The notes beneath the pieces are model-generated. The model ran no database searches, was not told where the DNA came from, and saw nothing but the letters and a program-made list of their open reading frames with translations. A stretch of 46,886 nucleotides of DNA from a virus, in the IMG/VR virus record IMGVR_UViG_3300046505_000018, positions 1 to 46,886 of that record; one strand, 5' to 3'. A program made the position numbers and the translations under genes. Shown piece after piece: positions 4,627 to 46,384 of this stretch. Positions within the stretch are counted from its first letter, which is position 1. Each line of letters begins with the position of its first letter.

Positions 4627-4975
4627 CATCCGAGACAGATCAGACCTGATCGCTCTCGTCGCCAAGCGAGCCCCGGTGGTGTCATGCCGCCGGGCTTGCT
4701 TGACGGATCGGGTGGAGAACCTGGGGGCGTTCCTATTCTACGGCACCCGAGGGGGTTGGGTGGTACGGGTACACACTACACGGGATCACTATGTCTCTGT
4801 CGTGCCCGGACGTTGTGGAGTCCAGGTAGGCGTCCTAGAACAAGTGCCCTGGGAAGTGTGGATCGGCGACCAGGGCGAGCAGATACTCTACCGGGGCGAT
4901 CACCCCGAGGAATACCGGAGGTTATGGGATGCTGCAAAAGCTGACGATGTTCGTTGTGACGTGGGACTCGCCTGA
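4619..4975 (+). CDS. Hypothetical protein (GTG start)
   Basis: A 118-residue frame starting at GTG 4619, eight bases before the previous stop, with ACCGGGGA about eight bases upstream as ribosome site. The ATGA at 4623 would give only eight residues and is rejected. It contains beta-rich segments (GGWVVRVHTTRDHYVSVVPG) and ends acidic. Function unknown. Confidence 0.55.
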   Translation: MHDIRDRSDLIALVAKRAPVVSCRRACLTDRVENLGAFLFYGTRGGWVVRVHTTRDHYVSVVPGRCGVQVGVLEQVPWEVWIGDQGEQILYRGDHPEEYRRLWDAAKADDVRCDVGLA

Positions 4976-11082: not shown

Positions 11083-12462
11083 CTACCAGGCGTAAACCCT
11101 TACTTCCCCCCGCCCACCGACCCCACCGATACCTCCAATGGTAGTGCCCGCACCGCCACCACCGCCGCCTCCCCCCGAAGCACCACCAGCGGCACCGGCT
11201 GATCCTGTTCCGGCGGCGTTAGCCGACCCACCACCGCCACCAGTCCCCCCCTTTGTAGAGGTTCCATCGGTACCTGCGGTATCCGCGGCTCCACCACCTC
11301 CACCGACGGGACTTGTTGGACTATCATAGGAACCGACGCCCCCGCCGGAACCCGGAGTGTAGACTGTTGTGGTAGCGTTGATGGCCCCTCCCCCACCGCC
11401 GCCTCCTCCTCCAAATAGGGAGATACCGCCAGGACCAGCGTTTGCGTTATGGATAGCCCGCCCGCCTCCGGCACCGCCGTATTCCGCGGGATACGCTCCG
11501 ACCCCTCCAGCCGGGGAATAGGCCGTGCCTGCCCCGCCATTTCCGACACCGGGGGTTCCAGTAGAGGCATAAGTCGGGAGGCCTCCGAATGTGGAGCCGG
11601 CACTCAGACCCACCGAACCAGGTCCACCTACTCCACCTCCGCTACCCCCACTCGCGTTATTGGCACTGTTCTGGAGGCCGCCAAAACCGCCACCTCCCCC
11701 ATAGGCGGATAAGTAGGCACCAAAACTTGAGGTACCGCCAGTACCACCGGAACCCCCGTTACCGAGGGAACCCGCTGTCCCGGCCGTTCCTCCCGTTCCA
11801 ACTGTCACAGTGACAGGCGACGATAGATCAGTGATCTTGAAGGTTCGGTCAATGATAGCCCCGCCGCCACCGCCGGAACCCCCGTGTCTAGTGACTGCGG
11901 CATTACCAGACCCACCACCACCGCCACCGCCAGCACCGACACAGACAACTCGTACCATTGTTGCCCCACCGGGAGGGGTGTAAGTCCCGGAGGAGGAGAA
12001 CACCTGTGGGGTAACTCCCCCTCCCCCCGCTGGGGCCGCGGTGTTCACCCACTTCGATCCGTTATACGATAGAATCTGGGTATTTGTGGGAGCCGTGAGA
12101 GTTACATCGGCCAGCCCAGCGAGTGTGGGAGCCGCTGAGTTCACCCAATTGGTTCCATCGAAGGTGAGAATCTGGCCGGAAGTCGCGGCCGTAATGAGGT
12201 TCGTCTGCCCATTCCATAGTTGACTGTTCAGGTTCGGAACGACAGTTGTAGAGGACACCACGAAAGGGGGCGTAACTCCTGTCGCGGTAGAGATCAACTG
12301 GAGGCCCGTCAGGGTACTCAAGGTGACGAGGGGGAAGGCTCCGAGATCGACCCCCATCTCGGCCCCCGTATAAGGGACCAAGACCGGACGGCCGAGGCTT
12401 CGACGGAGCCGCACGTCTTCCTTCGGGAACCTGTCTGGTCTTGTCGCACCGATGAGGGTCAT
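11083..12462 (-). CDS. Glycine-rich tail fibre protein
   Basis: A 459-residue protein. The N-terminal 140 residues contain repeated units (ATSGQILTFDGTNWVNSAAP and a second TNTQILSYNGSKWVNTAAP), typical of virion-attachment stalks. From about residue 170 onward it is dominated by glycine runs separated by short hydrophobic motifs (GGGGGAIIDRTF, GGFGG, FGGGGGGGGG), as in glycine-rich phage fibre tips that pack as polyglycine helices and bind receptors. It ends GGRGEVRVYAW. It overlaps the nozzle-like gene by TAATG. It is the best receptor-binding candidate together with 26834-28045. Confidence 0.75.
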   Translation of the reverse strand: MTLIGATRPDRFPKEDVRLRRSLGRPVLVPYTGAEMGVDLGAFPLVTLSTLTGLQLISTATGVTPPFVVSSTTVVPNLNSQLWNGQTNLITAATSGQILTFDGTNWVNSAAPTLAGLADVTLTAPTNTQILSYNGSKWVNTAAPAGGGGVTPQVFSSSGTYTPPGGATMVRVVCVGAGGGGGGGSGNAAVTRHGGSGGGGGAIIDRTFKITDLSSPVTVTVGTGGTAGTAGSLGNGGSGGTGGTSSFGAYLSAYGGGGGFGGLQNSANNASGGSGGGVGGPGSVGLSAGSTFGGLPTYASTGTPGVGNGGAGTAYSPAGGVGAYPAEYGGAGGGRAIHNANAGPGGISLFGGGGGGGGGAINATTTVYTPGSGGGVGSYDSPTSPVGGGGGAADTAGTDGTSTKGGTGGGGGSANAAGTGSAGAAGGASGGGGGGGGAGTTIGGIGGVGGRGEVRVYAW

Positions 12463-28740: not shown

Positions 28741-28878
28741 AAAAGAATATTCGGATTCATATTTCCGTCCGCGTGTGGGGCCAGGACGAAAAGAATGTTC
28801 GGAAATGAATTTCATAAGCGTGTGATGGCCGCGAGCGTTTATTAATGTTCGGAAATGAATTTCATAAGCGTGTGGTCC
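28741..28878. repeat. Three direct repeats at about 50-bp spacing in the divergent control region
   Basis: A 31-bp unit at 28794-28824 is repeated perfectly at 28844-28874 (period exactly 50 bp). A diverged third copy begins at 28741, sharing AAAAGAAT, TTCGGA and the GCGTGTG end. Each perfect copy contains the dyad GAAATGAATTTC. No gene is supported here. Likely regulator or initiator binding sites between the two arms. Confidence 0.8.
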
Positions 28879-34127: not shown

Positions 34128-34199
34128 AGGGCGATAGTTCAACTGGCAGAACCTTGGCATAGTAGCCGAGAAGTGTGGGTTCGACTCCCACTCGCCCAA
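34128..34199 (+). tRNA. tRNA-like gene with abnormal anticodon arm
   Basis: GGGCGA (34129-34134) pairs with TCGCCC (34192-34197); position 1:72 would be an A:A mismatch. TA, then D-stem GTTC/GAAC with loop AACTGGCA, and T-arm GTGGG-TTCGACT-CCCAC are all canonical. The anticodon arm is CTTGGC/GCCGAG around ATAGTA: a six-base loop (or eight with a five-bp stem), so no anticodon can be assigned; AGT is one reading. No CCA is encoded. A strong promoter precedes it and a ribosome site follows at once. Confidence 0.65.
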
Positions 34200-34663: not shown

Positions 34664-35088
34664 TGGCGAATGCACCCCGTCTTCCCGGCCCCGATAGGGC
34701 ACCCCCGACACCCGAGGCCCCGAAGGACATGCACTACAAGGAGCGGCTGATCCTCCTGGCCGCTGCGATGGCACAGCAGACCTCATCGAACCTGGACCGA
34801 CAGAAGTTCCTGGCCTTAATGGACTACATCCAGTCCACCAAACCTCTGCCAGAGTTCCGGGCCGATGGGAGGTCGAGGCAACCCAATCGCACGGCGATAA
34901 TCTACTCCTGGATGCTCTGGATCATCGCCCAGGTCCGAGGTGGAGTTCTGCCTGAGGCGGCCTCGACAGTCAACAAGGCCCTGGCCCTGGCCGAGAAGGC
35001 CGCCGCCTGCTACCTGCCTGGCGTGGATTTCGAGATCGTCGGCTCGGTAGCTGCGGGCTGGACCCTGGAGGTCAAGTCATGCGGATAG
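34663..35088 (+). CDS. Hypothetical protein
   Basis: A 141-residue protein: proline-rich start (APRLPGPDRAPPTPEAPKD), then helices (ERLILLAAAMAQQTSSNLDR, FLALMDYIQSTKPLPEF) and a C-terminal alanine-rich part. GAGGG upstream and TAATG overlap. It overlaps the next (secreted) protein gene by 10 bases. No family recognised. Confidence 0.55.
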   Translation: MANAPRLPGPDRAPPTPEAPKDMHYKERLILLAAAMAQQTSSNLDRQKFLALMDYIQSTKPLPEFRADGRSRQPNRTAIIYSWMLWIIAQVRGGVLPEAASTVNKALALAEKAAACYLPGVDFEIVGSVAAGWTLEVKSCG

Positions 35089-35684
35089 TCACTCTCCTAG
35101 CCCTCCTGGTCTTGTCGAGCCTGGCCTCTGCCGCGATGTGGTGTCCTGTGATTGACTACACGGGGAACTCCTTCTATCTTTCGGAGTCTCTCAATCAGTC
35201 GATGACCGCCCCGGACGCGGCGATGCAAATCGCTACGTTGAATGCCATTACTGGCTATTCCGATCTCTACTTCATGCCGACCTATGCCCAGTTACAGGCG
35301 GGGGAGGCTGAGGACGGCCTGCCCATCTTTGATTCCCAGTGGTGGCAAGAGACGATGGGGAACTCGGGCACGGCCTATTGGCGACTCGGGATGAGAGCCT
35401 TAGCCATGCCCCACGACGGTGATGCCAATAACGACGGCAGAGTGGACGTGGTAGACCTAGGAATCCTCGCCAAAAACTACGACGGCTTCGGGAAAAGCTG
35501 GGGCGAGGGGGACTTCACCGTGGGAGGCCTCGTTGACGTGGTGGACCTGGGCATTCTTGCCAAGAACTACGATTGGGTGGGCACACCGCCGAGTGATGTG
35601 ATGCTACCCGAGCCGTGCGTGTTTGGGCTTATGCTCGGCCTTCTGGTCCTGGGTCACAAGAGAGGCCGGGCCACCAGTATATGA
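35079..35684 (+). CDS. Secreted dockerin-type protein with PEP-CTERM sorting signal
   Basis: A 201-residue protein. Residues 1-19 are a signal peptide (RIVTLLALLVLSSLASAA). Residues 20-110 are an unrecognised exported domain rich in aromatics. Residues 113-166 hold two dockerin-type repeats: GDANNDGRVDVVDLGILAKN has intact calcium ligands D115, N117, D119 and D126; the second (DFTVGGLVDVVDLGILAKNY) has lost most ligands. A PEP motif (177-179), hydrophobic helix and basic HKRGR tail form a PEP-CTERM signal for exosortase processing. The architecture is a planctomycete-style cell-surface protein. Role in the phage unknown. Confidence 0.8.
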   Translation: MRIVTLLALLVLSSLASAAMWCPVIDYTGNSFYLSESLNQSMTAPDAAMQIATLNAITGYSDLYFMPTYAQLQAGEAEDGLPIFDSQWWQETMGNSGTAYWRLGMRALAMPHDGDANNDGRVDVVDLGILAKNYDGFGKSWGEGDFTVGGLVDVVDLGILAKNYDWVGTPPSDVMLPEPCVFGLMLGLLVLGHKRGRATSI

Positions 35685-42304: not shown

Positions 42305-42664
42305 ATGTTCAAACCGCTACATTCCCTCGTGACCGTCATCCTCGACCCCAAGAAGGGTCGCACCGATGGCGGCCTGGTCATCCCCGATGTCTGCGAGGCT
42401 GCGTTCCGTACCGGCGTAGTCCGGGCCGTCGGCCCTGGTCCGACGATGGATGTACCATCGGAGGATGGGGGGGCCATGTACGCCGGCCTCCCGGTCAAGC
42501 CAGGCGACCATGTGGTGATCGGCGTCCAGAAGAACCAGGCTGGCCGGCCGGTCAACCTGGGTGGCATGATCGACGACGATGGCGTCGAGGTCGTCCTGGT
42601 CAACATCCAGGACATCTGGGGCACCATCGACAAGGCCCCGACTGATCTTGCCATCGTGAACTAG
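42305..42664 (+). CDS. GroES-like co-chaperonin
   Basis: A 119-residue protein. FKPLHSLVTVILDPKKGRTD, then GGLVIPDVCEA, GVVRAVGPGPTMD and VKPGDHVVIG follow the GroES/Cpn10 order (PLxDRVxV, GGIxIPD, VxAVGxG, V(K)xGDxV), ending with a strand pair. The region between GGLVIPD and the glycine motif corresponds to the end of the mobile loop. GGAGG and ATG at good spacing. It would cap the host chaperonin, probably to fold capsid or other large phage proteins, like T4 gp31. Confidence 0.8.
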   Translation: MFKPLHSLVTVILDPKKGRTDGGLVIPDVCEAAFRTGVVRAVGPGPTMDVPSEDGGAMYAGLPVKPGDHVVIGVQKNQAGRPVNLGGMIDDDGVEVVLVNIQDIWGTIDKAPTDLAIVN

Positions 42665-42846
42665 GAACAGAGTCCGCGTGGCTAAGGCGAAAGCCGAAGG
42701 ACAAGAGACGGGTGGGCCATCACGAACCCGTCCACAAATGAGGCTCTGACAGTAGGCCAACGGTAGGCCAAACCTCATCACCGAGGCAGCCGGGAGAGAC
42801 CGGCAACTTTGAACTTTACCGCCCCATAGGGGCAGAGGATATGCAG
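42665..42846 (+). ncRNA. Five-hairpin structured leader or RNA
   Basis: No gene fits. Hairpins are: GTCC/GGAC (42672-42702) enclosing GGC-GAAA-GCC; GACGGGT/ACCCGTC (42707-42732); ATGAGG/CCTCAT (42738-42778), with GTAGGCCAA twice in its loop (42752 and 42763); GCCGG/CCGGC (42789-42804); GCCCC-ATA-GGGGC (42821-42833). AGAGG and the start codon follow immediately. The density of perfect stems argues for a functional RNA or translational control element. Confidence 0.65.
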
Positions 42847-43704
42847 ATGAATGCTATTGATCGTCCCGGCACGTTCCGGGGAAAGCCCCTGGAGTGGGGT
42901 GTGTCTGAAACCAAGAACGGTTTTCCGCAGTTCGTGGTCCGATTCCAGGCCACAGAGTTCTACGATGAGGAGGCCGGTGCCTACATGCCGTGGGCCGAGT
43001 ACGACCAGGAGGCGACGGCCTTCCTCGTGCTGTTCACCAAGAAGGACGAACAGTGGGTCGAACTCCTCAACGCCGCCCAGGTCAAGAAGGTGTTTGGCTG
43101 GGATGGACTGACCTTCGAGTCCCTGGCGAACGGGAAATATGAGGGCCTGACGGTTCTGTTCCGTGTGGAGCCCAACACCTACAACGGCCAGACCACCCTC
43201 AAGGTGACGTGGATCGACACGGCGGATTCCAATCCGACCAAGACCCTGACCAAGTACGACTCGTCGAAGCTGGCCGCCATGACCCAGGCCATGAGCGGGG
43301 CGTTGAAGCCCTCGACCCAGGCTCCTGCCCCGGCAAAGGCCCCGGCGAAGGCACCGGCTCGTGGTCCGGGCCGCCCCCCAAAGTCTACCCTGCCGGCGTC
43401 CCAGGCCGCTCCCGCCGGGGCGAAGCCCGGTGCCCCCTCGACGGCCACACCGCCGCGTGTTTCACCTGCACCCGCACCGGCTGCCCCCTCTGGCAACCCA
43501 CCCCCGGTGAACCCGGTGATCTGGACCCAGGAGACGGCCTGGAATGCGGTGAATGAGATGAAGTCGAAGGACGTGACCGACGAGAAGTTGGCCGAGGTAT
43601 GGGTCGCCGAGGGCGGCAAGATCGGCAAGACCGAGGACAAGTTCACGTCGGCCGACTGGGAGGCCGTCAAGGTTGCCGTGCAGAGTCAGACGGCAATCTT
43701 CTAA
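42847..43704 (+). CDS. SSB-like / DUF669-type DNA-binding protein with Pro/Ala linker
   Basis: A 285-residue protein. Residues 1-135 look like an OB-fold-type beta domain (RPGTFRGKPLEWGVSETKNG, FPQFVVRFQATEFYDEEAG, TTLKVTWIDTADS). Residues about 155-230 are a proline/alanine-rich linker with an AT-hook-like GRPPK, and the last 60 residues form a helical domain. A single-strand-binding role fits its place after the Sak4-like and nuclease genes, but is inferred. ATG 42847 has AGAGG eight bases upstream; ATG 42841 is too close. Confidence 0.55.
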   Translation: MNAIDRPGTFRGKPLEWGVSETKNGFPQFVVRFQATEFYDEEAGAYMPWAEYDQEATAFLVLFTKKDEQWVELLNAAQVKKVFGWDGLTFESLANGKYEGLTVLFRVEPNTYNGQTTLKVTWIDTADSNPTKTLTKYDSSKLAAMTQAMSGALKPSTQAPAPAKAPAKAPARGPGRPPKSTLPASQAAPAGAKPGAPSTATPPRVSPAPAPAAPSGNPPPVNPVIWTQETAWNAVNEMKSKDVTDEKLAEVWVAEGGKIGKTEDKFTSADWEAVKVAVQSQTAIF

Positions 43705-43708
43705 GAAC

Positions 43709-43800
43709 TGACCCGCCTCAAGATCGGGTCACAGGCAGGGTGCGGGCTCTGGGTGCCTAGCTGGCGGACGCACTAGGAGAACACCCATCCCGGCCCTGCC
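43709..43800 (+). ncRNA. Hairpin plus long rod-shaped RNA structure
   Basis: GACCCG/CGGGTC (43710-43730) is followed by a rod from 43734 to 43800 with stems GGCAGGG/CCCTGCC, CGGG/CCCG, TGGGTG/CACCCA and an apical CCTAG/CTAGG, 22 pairs in all. Only small bulges interrupt it. There is no T-loop sequence, so it is not a tRNA. The next gene's TTGGAG starts four bases later. Confidence 0.65.
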
Positions 43801-43815
43801 ACATTGGAGAACACA

Positions 43816-44004
43816 ATGCCACGCAGACGCAAAGATGTATCCGAGGGCCAGCGGAACTCGATCAAGGCCTGGTACGAGCAGGGCCAGGGCTTGAAGGCGA
43901 TCTCCCTCAAGTTAGGTCACAACATGGAAGTGATCCGCCGCGTCCTCGTCGAGATGAACGTGACGATACGGCCAGTCGGCCGCCCCTCGCAACTGGCCGA
44001 CTAG
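43816..44004 (+). CDS. Small helix-turn-helix protein
   Basis: A 62-residue basic protein. SEGQRNSIKAWYEQGQGLKA then ISLKLGHNMEVIRRVLVEM reads as a helix-turn-helix of the resolvase/Psq type, with RPVGRPSQ as an AT-hook-like tail. It may regulate phage transcription or recruit replication proteins. It lies between two structured RNA elements. TTGGAG precedes the ATG. Confidence 0.65.
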   Translation: MPRRRKDVSEGQRNSIKAWYEQGQGLKAISLKLGHNMEVIRRVLVEMNVTIRPVGRPSQLAD

Positions 44005-44007
44005 CAT

Positions 44008-44123
44008 CCGGCGGTAGCCCAACGGGAGAGGCAGCCTGACAAGGGAGAGTGGCCAGGACGGAACCACCGAATACTCGGTCGTGTCCGTATCGCCTAGTGT
44101 GGGTTCAAATCCCACCCGCCGTA
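44008..44123 (+). tRNA. Oversized tRNA-like element (about 115 bases)
   Basis: CGGCGG (44009-44014) pairs with CCGCCG (44116-44121). TA and D-arm GCCCAACGGGAGAGGC are followed by T-arm GTGGG-TTCAAAT-CCCAC (44099-44115). The 66 bases between them are too long for a normal anticodon and variable arm and contain ACCGA-ATAC-TCGGT inside GGAC/GTCC. No anticodon can be assigned. It could be an intron-bearing tRNA or a tRNA mimic. Position 1:72 is again mismatched (C:T). Confidence 0.5.
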
Positions 44124-44134
44124 TTGGAGATCGA

Positions 44135-46384
44135 ATGGGCCTCGACGATGATCTGATTTTGTTTCAGAAGAACGCCTGGCCGGCGATGGTGGCCGATCTA
44201 GCTCACGACCTGGGAGTGTCACCCGAGTCCCTGACCGCACTGGGGATCGGGTGGATGCCGGCCGAGGCCTGCTGGGTGTTCCCCGAGCGGGATGCCGAGG
44301 GCCAGGTTGTCGGCCTGTCTCGCCGATTCAAAGACGGGAAGAAGCTGTCCACCAAGGGCAGCAAGAGAGGACTTACTTATGCCGTGTCGCCGGAGTGGGA
44401 GATCGGGTCGAAGGGCGAAGCGTACACCCCAGGCCCGCACAACTGGGTCAAGGTCGAAGCGGCCGGCGTCGAGTGTCCTATCTGCGGGCACGACAATTGG
44501 TGCTTGGTGTCTTCGGAAAATCCGTCTGATCCAAAGGCGGTCATCTGCGGCAGAACTGCGGAAGGTGCGAAACAGCCTCTCGGAGATGCGGGATACTTGC
44601 ATATCCGCAAATCTGACGGTAACGTGTCCCGTCTGGAATCTGTGCTCCCAATGTCAGATTTGCCTGTTGTCGTTGTCGAAGGTCAGAGCGATGTTGCAGC
44701 GGCCCTCACTCTCGGGTTCGTCGGAGTTGGAAAACCTTCGGCGTCTGGCGGCCTATCGACTCTCGGGGCTCTCCTGGTAGGTCGAGAAGTCGTGGTCATC
44801 GGGGAGAACGACGCCGGGGCCGGCCGCCTCGGGATGGAGAAGACCTTTGAAGCACTCAAGCCCAAGGCCAAGAAAGTTATCAAGCTCATGCCGCCGGAGG
44901 GGATCAAAGACCTTCGGGCCTGGATTCGGGCTGGTCTTAATCAAGACGACCTCCTCGCCGCCATCGCCCTCGGGGAGACCACAAGCTCCTCTGACCTTCT
45001 TGAATCAACCGCTCCAATGGACATCTCCGACCGCTGGTTGCGTGATCGGCACTCTATCGGCGATCTGCCGATCCTTAGGATGTACTCCGGGAACTGGTTT
45101 CGATTCGACGGCAAGAAGTACGCGAAGGTCGAGGACAAGACCTTCGTCCGGGGCGACCTCTACCGCTTCCTCAAGGGGAAGAACGCGAAGGTGATCGGGT
45201 CCAAGGGCGAGGTATCGGTCAAACCATACGAGGCCGATGCCCACCGGGTCAGCGACATCTTGGACACCCTGACGACAGTGTGCCCCGTGTACGAGGACGC
45301 CCCCTGCTGGCTGGACGGCGACGACCATCCCCGGACAGAGAACATCGTCAGCTTCGACAACGGGCTCCTACTCCTACCGGACCTGGACCTGGACCCTTCA
45401 TCGCCACAGTTCTTCTCGATGACGGCCATGCCCTACAGTTGGAGCAAGTCGTCACGTTGTGACCGATGGCTACAGTTCCTAGAGGAGGTGTTCCCCAATG
45501 ACCCGCAAGAAGCGGCCTTGCTCCAAGAGTGGTTCGGCTACAACCTCGTCGCCGATACATCCGAAGAGAAGCTCATGTTTTTTGTTGGACGACCTGGAGC
45601 AGGAAAGGGAACGGTGCTTGAAGCACTTCGAGCGATGCTTGGCCCAGGGCAAGTTGCATCTACCTCCTTCGACTCCCTCGTGGGTGACTTCGGCCTCCAG
45701 CCTCTCCTGGGAAAACTCGCCGCGATTATGCCGGATGCTCACATTACTAAGAGGGGTGATCCGGCTAAGGCCCTCCAGGTTTTGAAGGAGATCAGCGGCC
45801 GGGACTCGGTGAGCATCAACCGCAAGAACAAGGACTTCCTCAGTGACCATAAACTGTCGTGTCGTTTCACGATCTCCGTCAACTCGATGCCTGACCTGCC
45901 CGACCATGAGCGATCCCTCGACCGCCGACTGCTATTGCTGCACTTTGGCGAGTCGTTCGCGGGTCGAGAGGACACTGGCCTCAAGGACACGATCCGGGAA
46001 GAAGCGGCCGGGATCGCGGTCTGGGCCGTCCAAGGACTCCTCCGACTGAGGGAACATGGCTGGACCGCCCCGGAGTCGGCCAGGCCGGTGATCGAGGAGT
46101 TCCGTAAGCAGTCCTCGCCGATCTCCGAGTTCGCGGGCGAGTTCTGCGTGACGGATAAGTCGGCGATGGTCCCGAGCCTGATGGTCTACGACGCCTACCT
46201 CCACTGGTGCAAAGACCAGGGGGCATTCGCCGGCTCACAATGTAGGTTCAGTCAGAGGTTTTTACTCTTGCATCCTGGCGTTCGACCGGATAGAATACCC
46301 TGGCAAGGGAAACAAGTCCGCGGGTTCCTGGGGGTGAAGCTGACCCAGGAGGCCGTGGAGAGATATTTGATCGGTAGGAGGTAG
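44135..46384 (+). CDS. Primase-helicase (Toprim plus D5-like SF3 helicase)
   Basis: A 749-residue protein. CPICGHDNWC (114-123) and C138 form a zinc site. The Toprim part has PVVVVEGQSDVAAA (from 177) and VVIGENDAGAGRLG, then GIKDLRAW. The middle is a D5_N-type domain. The helicase has Walker A GRPGAGKGT (485-493), AIMPDAH in the Walker B place, and FTISVNSMPDLPDHERSLDR with sensor asparagine and arginine finger. It would unwind DNA and make primers for the polymerase at 36229. TTGGAG (44125-44130) sets ATG 44135. Confidence 0.9.
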   Translation: MGLDDDLILFQKNAWPAMVADLAHDLGVSPESLTALGIGWMPAEACWVFPERDAEGQVVGLSRRFKDGKKLSTKGSKRGLTYAVSPEWEIGSKGEAYTPGPHNWVKVEAAGVECPICGHDNWCLVSSENPSDPKAVICGRTAEGAKQPLGDAGYLHIRKSDGNVSRLESVLPMSDLPVVVVEGQSDVAAALTLGFVGVGKPSASGGLSTLGALLVGREVVVIGENDAGAGRLGMEKTFEALKPKAKKVIKLMPPEGIKDLRAWIRAGLNQDDLLAAIALGETTSSSDLLESTAPMDISDRWLRDRHSIGDLPILRMYSGNWFRFDGKKYAKVEDKTFVRGDLYRFLKGKNAKVIGSKGEVSVKPYEADAHRVSDILDTLTTVCPVYEDAPCWLDGDDHPRTENIVSFDNGLLLLPDLDLDPSSPQFFSMTAMPYSWSKSSRCDRWLQFLEEVFPNDPQEAALLQEWFGYNLVADTSEEKLMFFVGRPGAGKGTVLEALRAMLGPGQVASTSFDSLVGDFGLQPLLGKLAAIMPDAHITKRGDPAKALQVLKEISGRDSVSINRKNKDFLSDHKLSCRFTISVNSMPDLPDHERSLDRRLLLLHFGESFAGREDTGLKDTIREEAAGIAVWAVQGLLRLREHGWTAPESARPVIEEFRKQSSPISEFAGEFCVTDKSAMVPSLMVYDAYLHWCKDQGAFAGSQCRFSQRFLLLHPGVRPDRIPWQGKQVRGFLGVKLTQEAVERYLIGRR

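Follow-up and report, generated by a model that had tools for sequence, protein, structure and literature searches.

A covarying hairpin RNA, widespread in phages of many bacterial phyla, in a gap upstream of an SSB-like gene

The window, meaning the whole stretch of DNA analysed here, is a single virus record of 46,886 bases. We focused on a gap within a run of genes ordered PD-(D/E)XK exonuclease, RNase T, Sak4, GroES-like, gap, SSB-like, small HTH gene, tRNA-like element and D5-type primase. A preliminary description counted 176 gene-free bases here, and the reading frames agree. The last base of the GroES-like stop codon is 42664, and the SSB-like gene has its first ATG at 42841.

42305..42664, + strand: GroES-like gene (Pfam PF00166 (Cpn10), 6.5e-9)
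42665..42840, + strand: gene-free gap, 176 nt
42841..43704, + strand: SSB-like gene (resemblance to the Tunturi_2 SSB; Sak4 precedes the SSB gene in relatives)

Family searches with the SSB-like product gave no match. In a single comparison, the product aligned to the annotated SSB of phage Tunturi_2 (28% over 47 aa, E 0.001). A second ATG, at 42847, may be the true start, and its spacing to the ribosome site AGAGGA is better. The operon had been called otherwise gap-free. This is not so, because 43705-43816 and about 44005-44134 are likewise gene-free and structured. The former, between the SSB-like and HTH genes, is strongly structured (fold of 43700-44130: z -2.60). A tRNA-like element (44008-44123; Rfam tRNA, 29.2 bits) immediately precedes the primase start at 44135; it has a large insertion, since it is 116 nt long. 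In 7 of 34 relatives (L008, L009, L021, L023, L026, L027 and L037), ARAGORN places tRNAs or odd tRNA-like genes no more than about 50 nt before the primase. Two more relatives (L033, L034) have ARAGORN tRNA-like genes further upstream of the primase (tRNA-Pyl call, anticodon cta). Elsewhere in the window, 34128-34199 is a degenerate tRNA with a good T arm, a six-nt anticodon loop and a two-letter ARAGORN anticodon. An AT-rich noncoding region at about 28793-28876 has two copies of a sequence of about 30 nt, ATGTTCGGAAATGAATTTCATAAGCGTGTG. Read by eye, the translation of 35079-35684 looks dockerin-like with a PEP-CTERM-like tail, motifs that hint at a planctomycete host.

All five stems proposed previously could be located in the gap by their coordinates.

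42686-42695: hairpin 1, GGC-GAAA-GCC (GAAA tetraloop)
42707-42713 with 42726-42732: hairpin 2, GACGGGT/ACCCGTC
42755-42769: hairpin 3, GGCC/GGCC
42789-42804: hairpin 4, GCCGG-GAGAGA-CCGGC
42821..42839, + strand: hairpin 5, GCCCC-AUA-GGGGC (42821-42833), with the ribosome site AGAGGA (42834-42839); outside the RNA family described below

Hairpin 5, with its ATA loop, indeed abuts the ribosome site. In L008 and L009 we found, by eye, a comparable small hairpin ahead of the Shine-Dalgarno sequence of the SSB gene. The duplicated 9-mer reported earlier is GTAGGCCAA, at 42752-42760 and 42763-42771; such a short repeat would not impress taken alone. The gap has a predicted fold of -64.1 kcal/mol (z -1.89), with 9 of 200 shuffles at least as stable. 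By itself, this computed energy is only modestly unusual.

Known RNA families do not account for the gap. Neither Rfam nor ARAGORN called a tRNA in 42665-42840. Rfam 15, at gathering score, gave no match at the element defined below, either in the window or in the other loci searched, and relaxed thresholds returned only snoRNA- or miRNA-like chance matches in the gap. Resemblances to cobalamin and glycine riboswitches, group I and II introns and hammerheads were considered, then dropped for want of an Rfam match. As a separate observation, one phage contig (L391, 6274-6437) carries two suhB/mmgR-like sRNA matches, one of them above the Rfam gathering score.

Searches by primary sequence returned little. 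BLAST found no DNA relatives of the window in 50,697 phages. The whole 182 nt gave nothing significant by blastn or nhmmer against the loci gathered at that stage. Distant BLAST in phages and plasmids recovered short pieces only, and three independent phage pieces, from unannotated stretches of unrelated phages, fell on one hairpin. The shared element consists of (U)G[A/G]CAG, five stem pairs whose sequence varies, a GARAGA loop and then CA. Among the best 35 rows for a hairpin probe, several of which are duplicate records, 30 lacked an annotated feature, 3 were in hypothetical genes and 2 were in unannotated records. The pattern TGACAGNSSGGARAGACSSNCA, in which the stem letters were left free to mismatch, occurs in at least 120 viral contigs and at least 120 bacterial-genome contigs. 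The reversed pattern, used as a control, occurs in 1 viral contig. Among the matches listed, hosts named in record titles include Proteobacteria, Clostridia, Bacteroidota, Spirochaetes, Planctomycetes, Chloroflexota, Acidobacteriota and others. Isolated phages with copies include Cronobacter phage CS01, Stenotrophomonas phage Pokken and Synechococcus phage MinM2.

We tabulated copies from 80 of the at least 120 stretches in each set. In 82 of 85 viral copies the three free pairs all form, 70 of these being purely Watson-Crick and 12 containing a G.U; the genome set gives 79 of 83 copies, and many stem sequences are represented. A separate scan for the GGCAG...CAAC type, to which the window belongs, found 36 contigs, and 37/37 copies were paired. 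Hence, the stems covary in viral, genomic and GGCAG-type copies, and the covariation across phages that the preliminary description asked for is present. The RNA family is almost certainly real. A single noncoding or tRNA region, in phage or genome contigs, can contain several copies (L117, L103, L473, L266). One CRISPR array of Anaerolinea thermophila (L301), with 62 repeats in the stretch examined, has two spacers (877-912 and 1683-1718) carrying the element or a close variant. This is consistent with the element's presence in phages that attack that host.

In one subfamily, found in many phages, the hairpin is the 3' end of a larger RNA of about 150 nt, with four helices and conserved unpaired strings. 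Strong members of the family include L119, L227/L244 and L099. The layout in the alphaproteobacterial set is GCGAAA, helix P2, GAGUAGG, helix P3, AACG...CGUGACAG and P5. We tabulated 184 copies including that of the window, of which 60 have a GAGAGA loop. The stem A-ACGNN...NNCGU directly precedes GACAG in 43 of these 60, compared with 21 of the 124 copies with other loops. We also scanned with a long-form pattern that fixed the outer P4 pairs and specified no letters of the P5 stem or loop, nor of P2. It matched 98 stretches. A hairpin of at least 4 bp follows in 57 of the 80 rows tabulated, nearly always with a GAGAGA loop; most of the remaining rows look like chance matches. P2 was assessed in 45 rows with GCGAAA or ACGAAA upstream and a GAGAGA loop. 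Of 270 positions, 234 were paired, where shuffles averaged 135. For the 28 distinct combinations the count was 147 of 168, against 84 on shuffling (shuffle maximum 100).

An alignment of 30 non-redundant rows (A4), each of at most 170 nt and excluding the window, gave the same picture. Cells paired in 92.6% of cases versus 73.4% when shuffled, and covariation was 0.432 versus 0.121 (0/500 shuffles). We built two RNA models, both with the window excluded. Briefly, R1 describes the two-stem core and R2 the full-length RNA. R1 was aligned from 33 of 37 rows, with L226, L233, L108 and L167 omitted for their long loops; P4 pairing in this alignment arises partly by construction, because the training rows were chosen for having P4. 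R1 gave 0 matches at E<=0.1 in 52 unrelated primase loci and phage loci (543 kb). R2 gave one match at E<=1, in L019, across 80 loci (925 kb).

Both models find the window copy.

42681..42815, + strand: R2 match (30.6 bits, E 5e-7, model positions 1-160), the sole match at E<=5 in the window
42754..42809, + strand: R1 match (27.7 bits, E 1.8e-6); next best in the window, 8.6 bits
42785..42807, + strand: shared element, consisting of GGCAG, stem GCCGG/CCGGC (42789-42793, 42800-42804), loop GAGAGA (42794-42799) and AAC
42760..42784, + strand: P4, ACGGU (42760-42764) with ACCG (42780-42783), and A.A in place of the usual closing A-U
42751..42758, + strand: AGUAGGCC, counterpart of the family's GAGUAGG, overlapping the first GTAGGCCAA copy (R2 alignment, weak alone)
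42687..42692, + strand: GCGAAA, counterpart of the family's invariant 5' GCGAAA (R2 alignments with and without the hairpin, weak alone)
42668..42748, + strand: predicted 7-bp junction-closing helix, CAGAGUC (42668-42674) with GGCUCUG (42742-42748) (MFE and centroid fold)

Bases 42785-42805 show GRCAG, a 5-bp stem, a GARAGA loop and CA. The 5' strings align in family order, and the P2 pairs of the R2 model are broken in the window. The predicted 7-bp helix may occupy the place of P2, although R2 does not align it as such. An analogue of the window's P4, AACGGU..ACCGU-GGCAG, is present in L455. Membership of the window copy is firm through the 3' hairpin, and the 5' part (GCGAAA, AGUAGGCC and P4) is weakly consistent with the family, because R2 with the 3' hairpin removed scores 1.0 bit (E 0.11) at the same place and bare hairpins elsewhere reach about 20-22 bits. 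The match of the window's hairpin to R1 and R2 is partly circular, since the family was reached from that very hairpin; the 5' part provides the independent test, and it is weak. We conclude that the window copy very probably belongs to the family.

Relatives were gathered through a primase alignment of the window and four phages, which yielded 80 viral loci. In the 34 best matching (L008-L041), the order is mostly exonuclease-Sak4-(GroES)-SSB-primase, and 33 of 34 have an SSB match. Neither R1 nor R2 detected a copy upstream of SSB in any of these 34. The preliminary description had looked to conservation of the stems in homologous intergenic regions; 0 relatives have the element between GroES and SSB. 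In 33 relatives sharing the replication genes there is no copy at E<=1. L019 is the sole relative with the element, which lies some 3 kb past the primase (33.5 bits, E 3.4e-7 with R1; 21.3 bits, E 0.0026 with R2). This copy (11291-11382) has a compensated stem, UGUAGG/CCUACA, absent from the training rows. The closest relative, L008, has in its GroES-SSB gap (4717-4788) a sigma70-like promoter (TTGACA, 17 nt, TAAGAT; by eye) in place of the element.

These comparisons bear on two explanations. In the first, SSB would bind its own mRNA, as in a gp32-like autoregulatory leader. The element does lie directly upstream of the SSB-like gene, and the SSB family PF00436 is downstream of 1 of 44 other copies. 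However, none of the 34 relatives, in 33 of which an SSB homologue is detectable, carries a copy in this position, and other copies precede capsid, polymerase and tRNA genes. Autoregulation by SSB is most improbable, and we dropped it since the leader is not conserved with the SSB gene in relatives. In the second, the element would belong to a mobile RNA that moves into the spaces between genes, in some cases together with an HNH nuclease. The gap is empty in relatives, several genomes among the matches listed have copies on different contigs, and L090 has two copies with an annotated HNH gene downstream. Against this, no boundary sequence or linked gene is common to the family, and mobility is very unlikely. 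An HNH-linked element as a general rule, suggested by L090, was rejected for its diverse neighbours.

Viral copies fall inside a chosen ORF less often than random positions do (27 of 85, compared with 417 of 600). For genome copies the figure is 32 of 83 (5 sense, 27 antisense). Relative to the local gene strand, viral copies are on the same strand in 54 cases, opposite in 11 and unclear in 20 (n=85); genome copies are the same in 30, opposite in 11 and unclear in 42 (n=83). Members of the subfamily frequently begin exactly at the stop codon of the gene upstream. Downstream, a start preceded by a Shine-Dalgarno sequence lies 17-29 nt away in 15 of 85 viral copies (14 ATG, 1 GTG), and a tRNA gene begins 2-6 nt past the element in L112, L135, L166, L100, L104 and L232. 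In three sets of copies, the commonest neighbouring gene family accounts for 4/44, 4/20 and 6/22. Head-tail adaptors are neighbours of 4/44 and 4/20 copies, and other families have mostly one or two members. The element cannot be a specific regulator of SSB or GroES, because conserved copies sit in unrelated places. The earlier proposal of an undescribed cis-regulatory RNA holds in part. An undescribed structured RNA is borne out by covariation across phages and the lack of an Rfam match; a cis-regulatory role is conjectural.

The same counts weigh on a protein-binding hairpin that would control RNA stability or translation through a phage or host RNA-binding protein. Protein-binding sites are typically short hairpins in which, as here, loop and flanks are invariant and the stem is free, and some copies lie ahead of ribosome sites. 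Conversely, no single neighbour family stands out, and a host partner would need conservation from Proteobacteria to Chloroflexota. We consider this unlikely, while counting it among the two main rivals to the reading that follows.

With a probability of about 0.4, we favour an intercistronic RNA-processing site in phage transcripts, perhaps a ribozyme. This would best explain an element that is gene-independent and placed exactly between transcript units. The polycistronic transcript would be cut at or near the element, whether the RNA cleaves itself or a nuclease common to all hosts does so; as the hosts span many phyla, a host-specific partner is unlikely. The message upstream would thereby be detached from the ribosome site or tRNA that follows. 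For the window, SSB could then be expressed and decay independently of the upstream recombination genes. The wide variety of flanking gene families is as expected for a generic element. The strand bias and low ORF overlap of the viral copies, the subfamily starts at stop codons, the spacing to start codons and tRNA genes, and the regions with several copies also speak for such a role. Conservation points to no cleavage site beyond the conserved CA. The weaker strand bias of the genome set, and its many antisense ORF overlaps, count against processing. A more specific version is unlikely: here the element would be a new class of self-cleaving ribozyme, distributed among the phages of most bacterial phyla and cleaving their polycistronic transcripts between genes and tRNAs, and the window copy would be a divergent one.

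Copies just before terminators (L116, L120 and L179, by eye) are easier to reconcile with antitermination or 3'-end protection than with processing. They bring in the other main rival, a put-like RNA. Here, nascent hairpins would bind host RNA polymerase and suppress downstream termination and pausing without a phage protein. Copies occur in operons, sometimes just before terminators, and RNA polymerase is universal. Two adjacent stem-loops make up put RNAs (PMC9378689), and P4 with P5 is a similar arrangement. However, R1 has no match at E<=5 in HK022 20000-40700 (20.7 kb; put is assumed to lie inside from the paper and gene order). Moreover, put sites are near early promoters but copies of the element occur anywhere, and antitermination needs no multiple copies per region. 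A put-like role is also unlikely, and processing remains our preferred reading.

As an RNA family, the element matches nothing in Rfam 15, and our literature searches found no paper describing it. Fremin and colleagues have reportedly published a list of candidate structured RNAs of phages, in which it may be an unnamed entry. An RNA that covaries, is missing from Rfam 15 and occurs in hundreds of phage and prophage contigs, with hosts ranging from Proteobacteria to Chloroflexota, would rank among the more widespread structured phage RNAs. It offers a compact and testable way to study how phages divide up their polycistronic transcripts and tRNA clusters.

Several known systems invite comparison. 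Hammerheads and other small self-cleaving ribozymes in phages have short conserved strings and variable helices, and are intergenic, beside unrelated genes. The element is likewise intergenic, with short conserved strings joined by variable helices. It differs in sharing no common core and in having no Rfam ribozyme match in the copies searched, and its cleavage is putative. In tRNA punctuation by RNase P, RNA structure lies between the genes of a transcript. The element too is RNA structure between genes; it is not a tRNA, and Rfam tRNA matches adjoin it without covering it. GOLLD and ROOL are large structured RNAs of phages, often near tRNAs. They are much larger than the element, which has no Rfam match; both are structured phage RNAs often found near tRNAs (see also PMC12286853). 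The put RNAs are gene-independent, about 70 nt long and made of two adjacent stem-loops (PMC9378689). The put RNA of HK022 is unlike the element in placement and breadth, and in the R1 result given above. It resembles the element as a cis RNA of phages, with adjacent stem-loops and independence of any particular gene.
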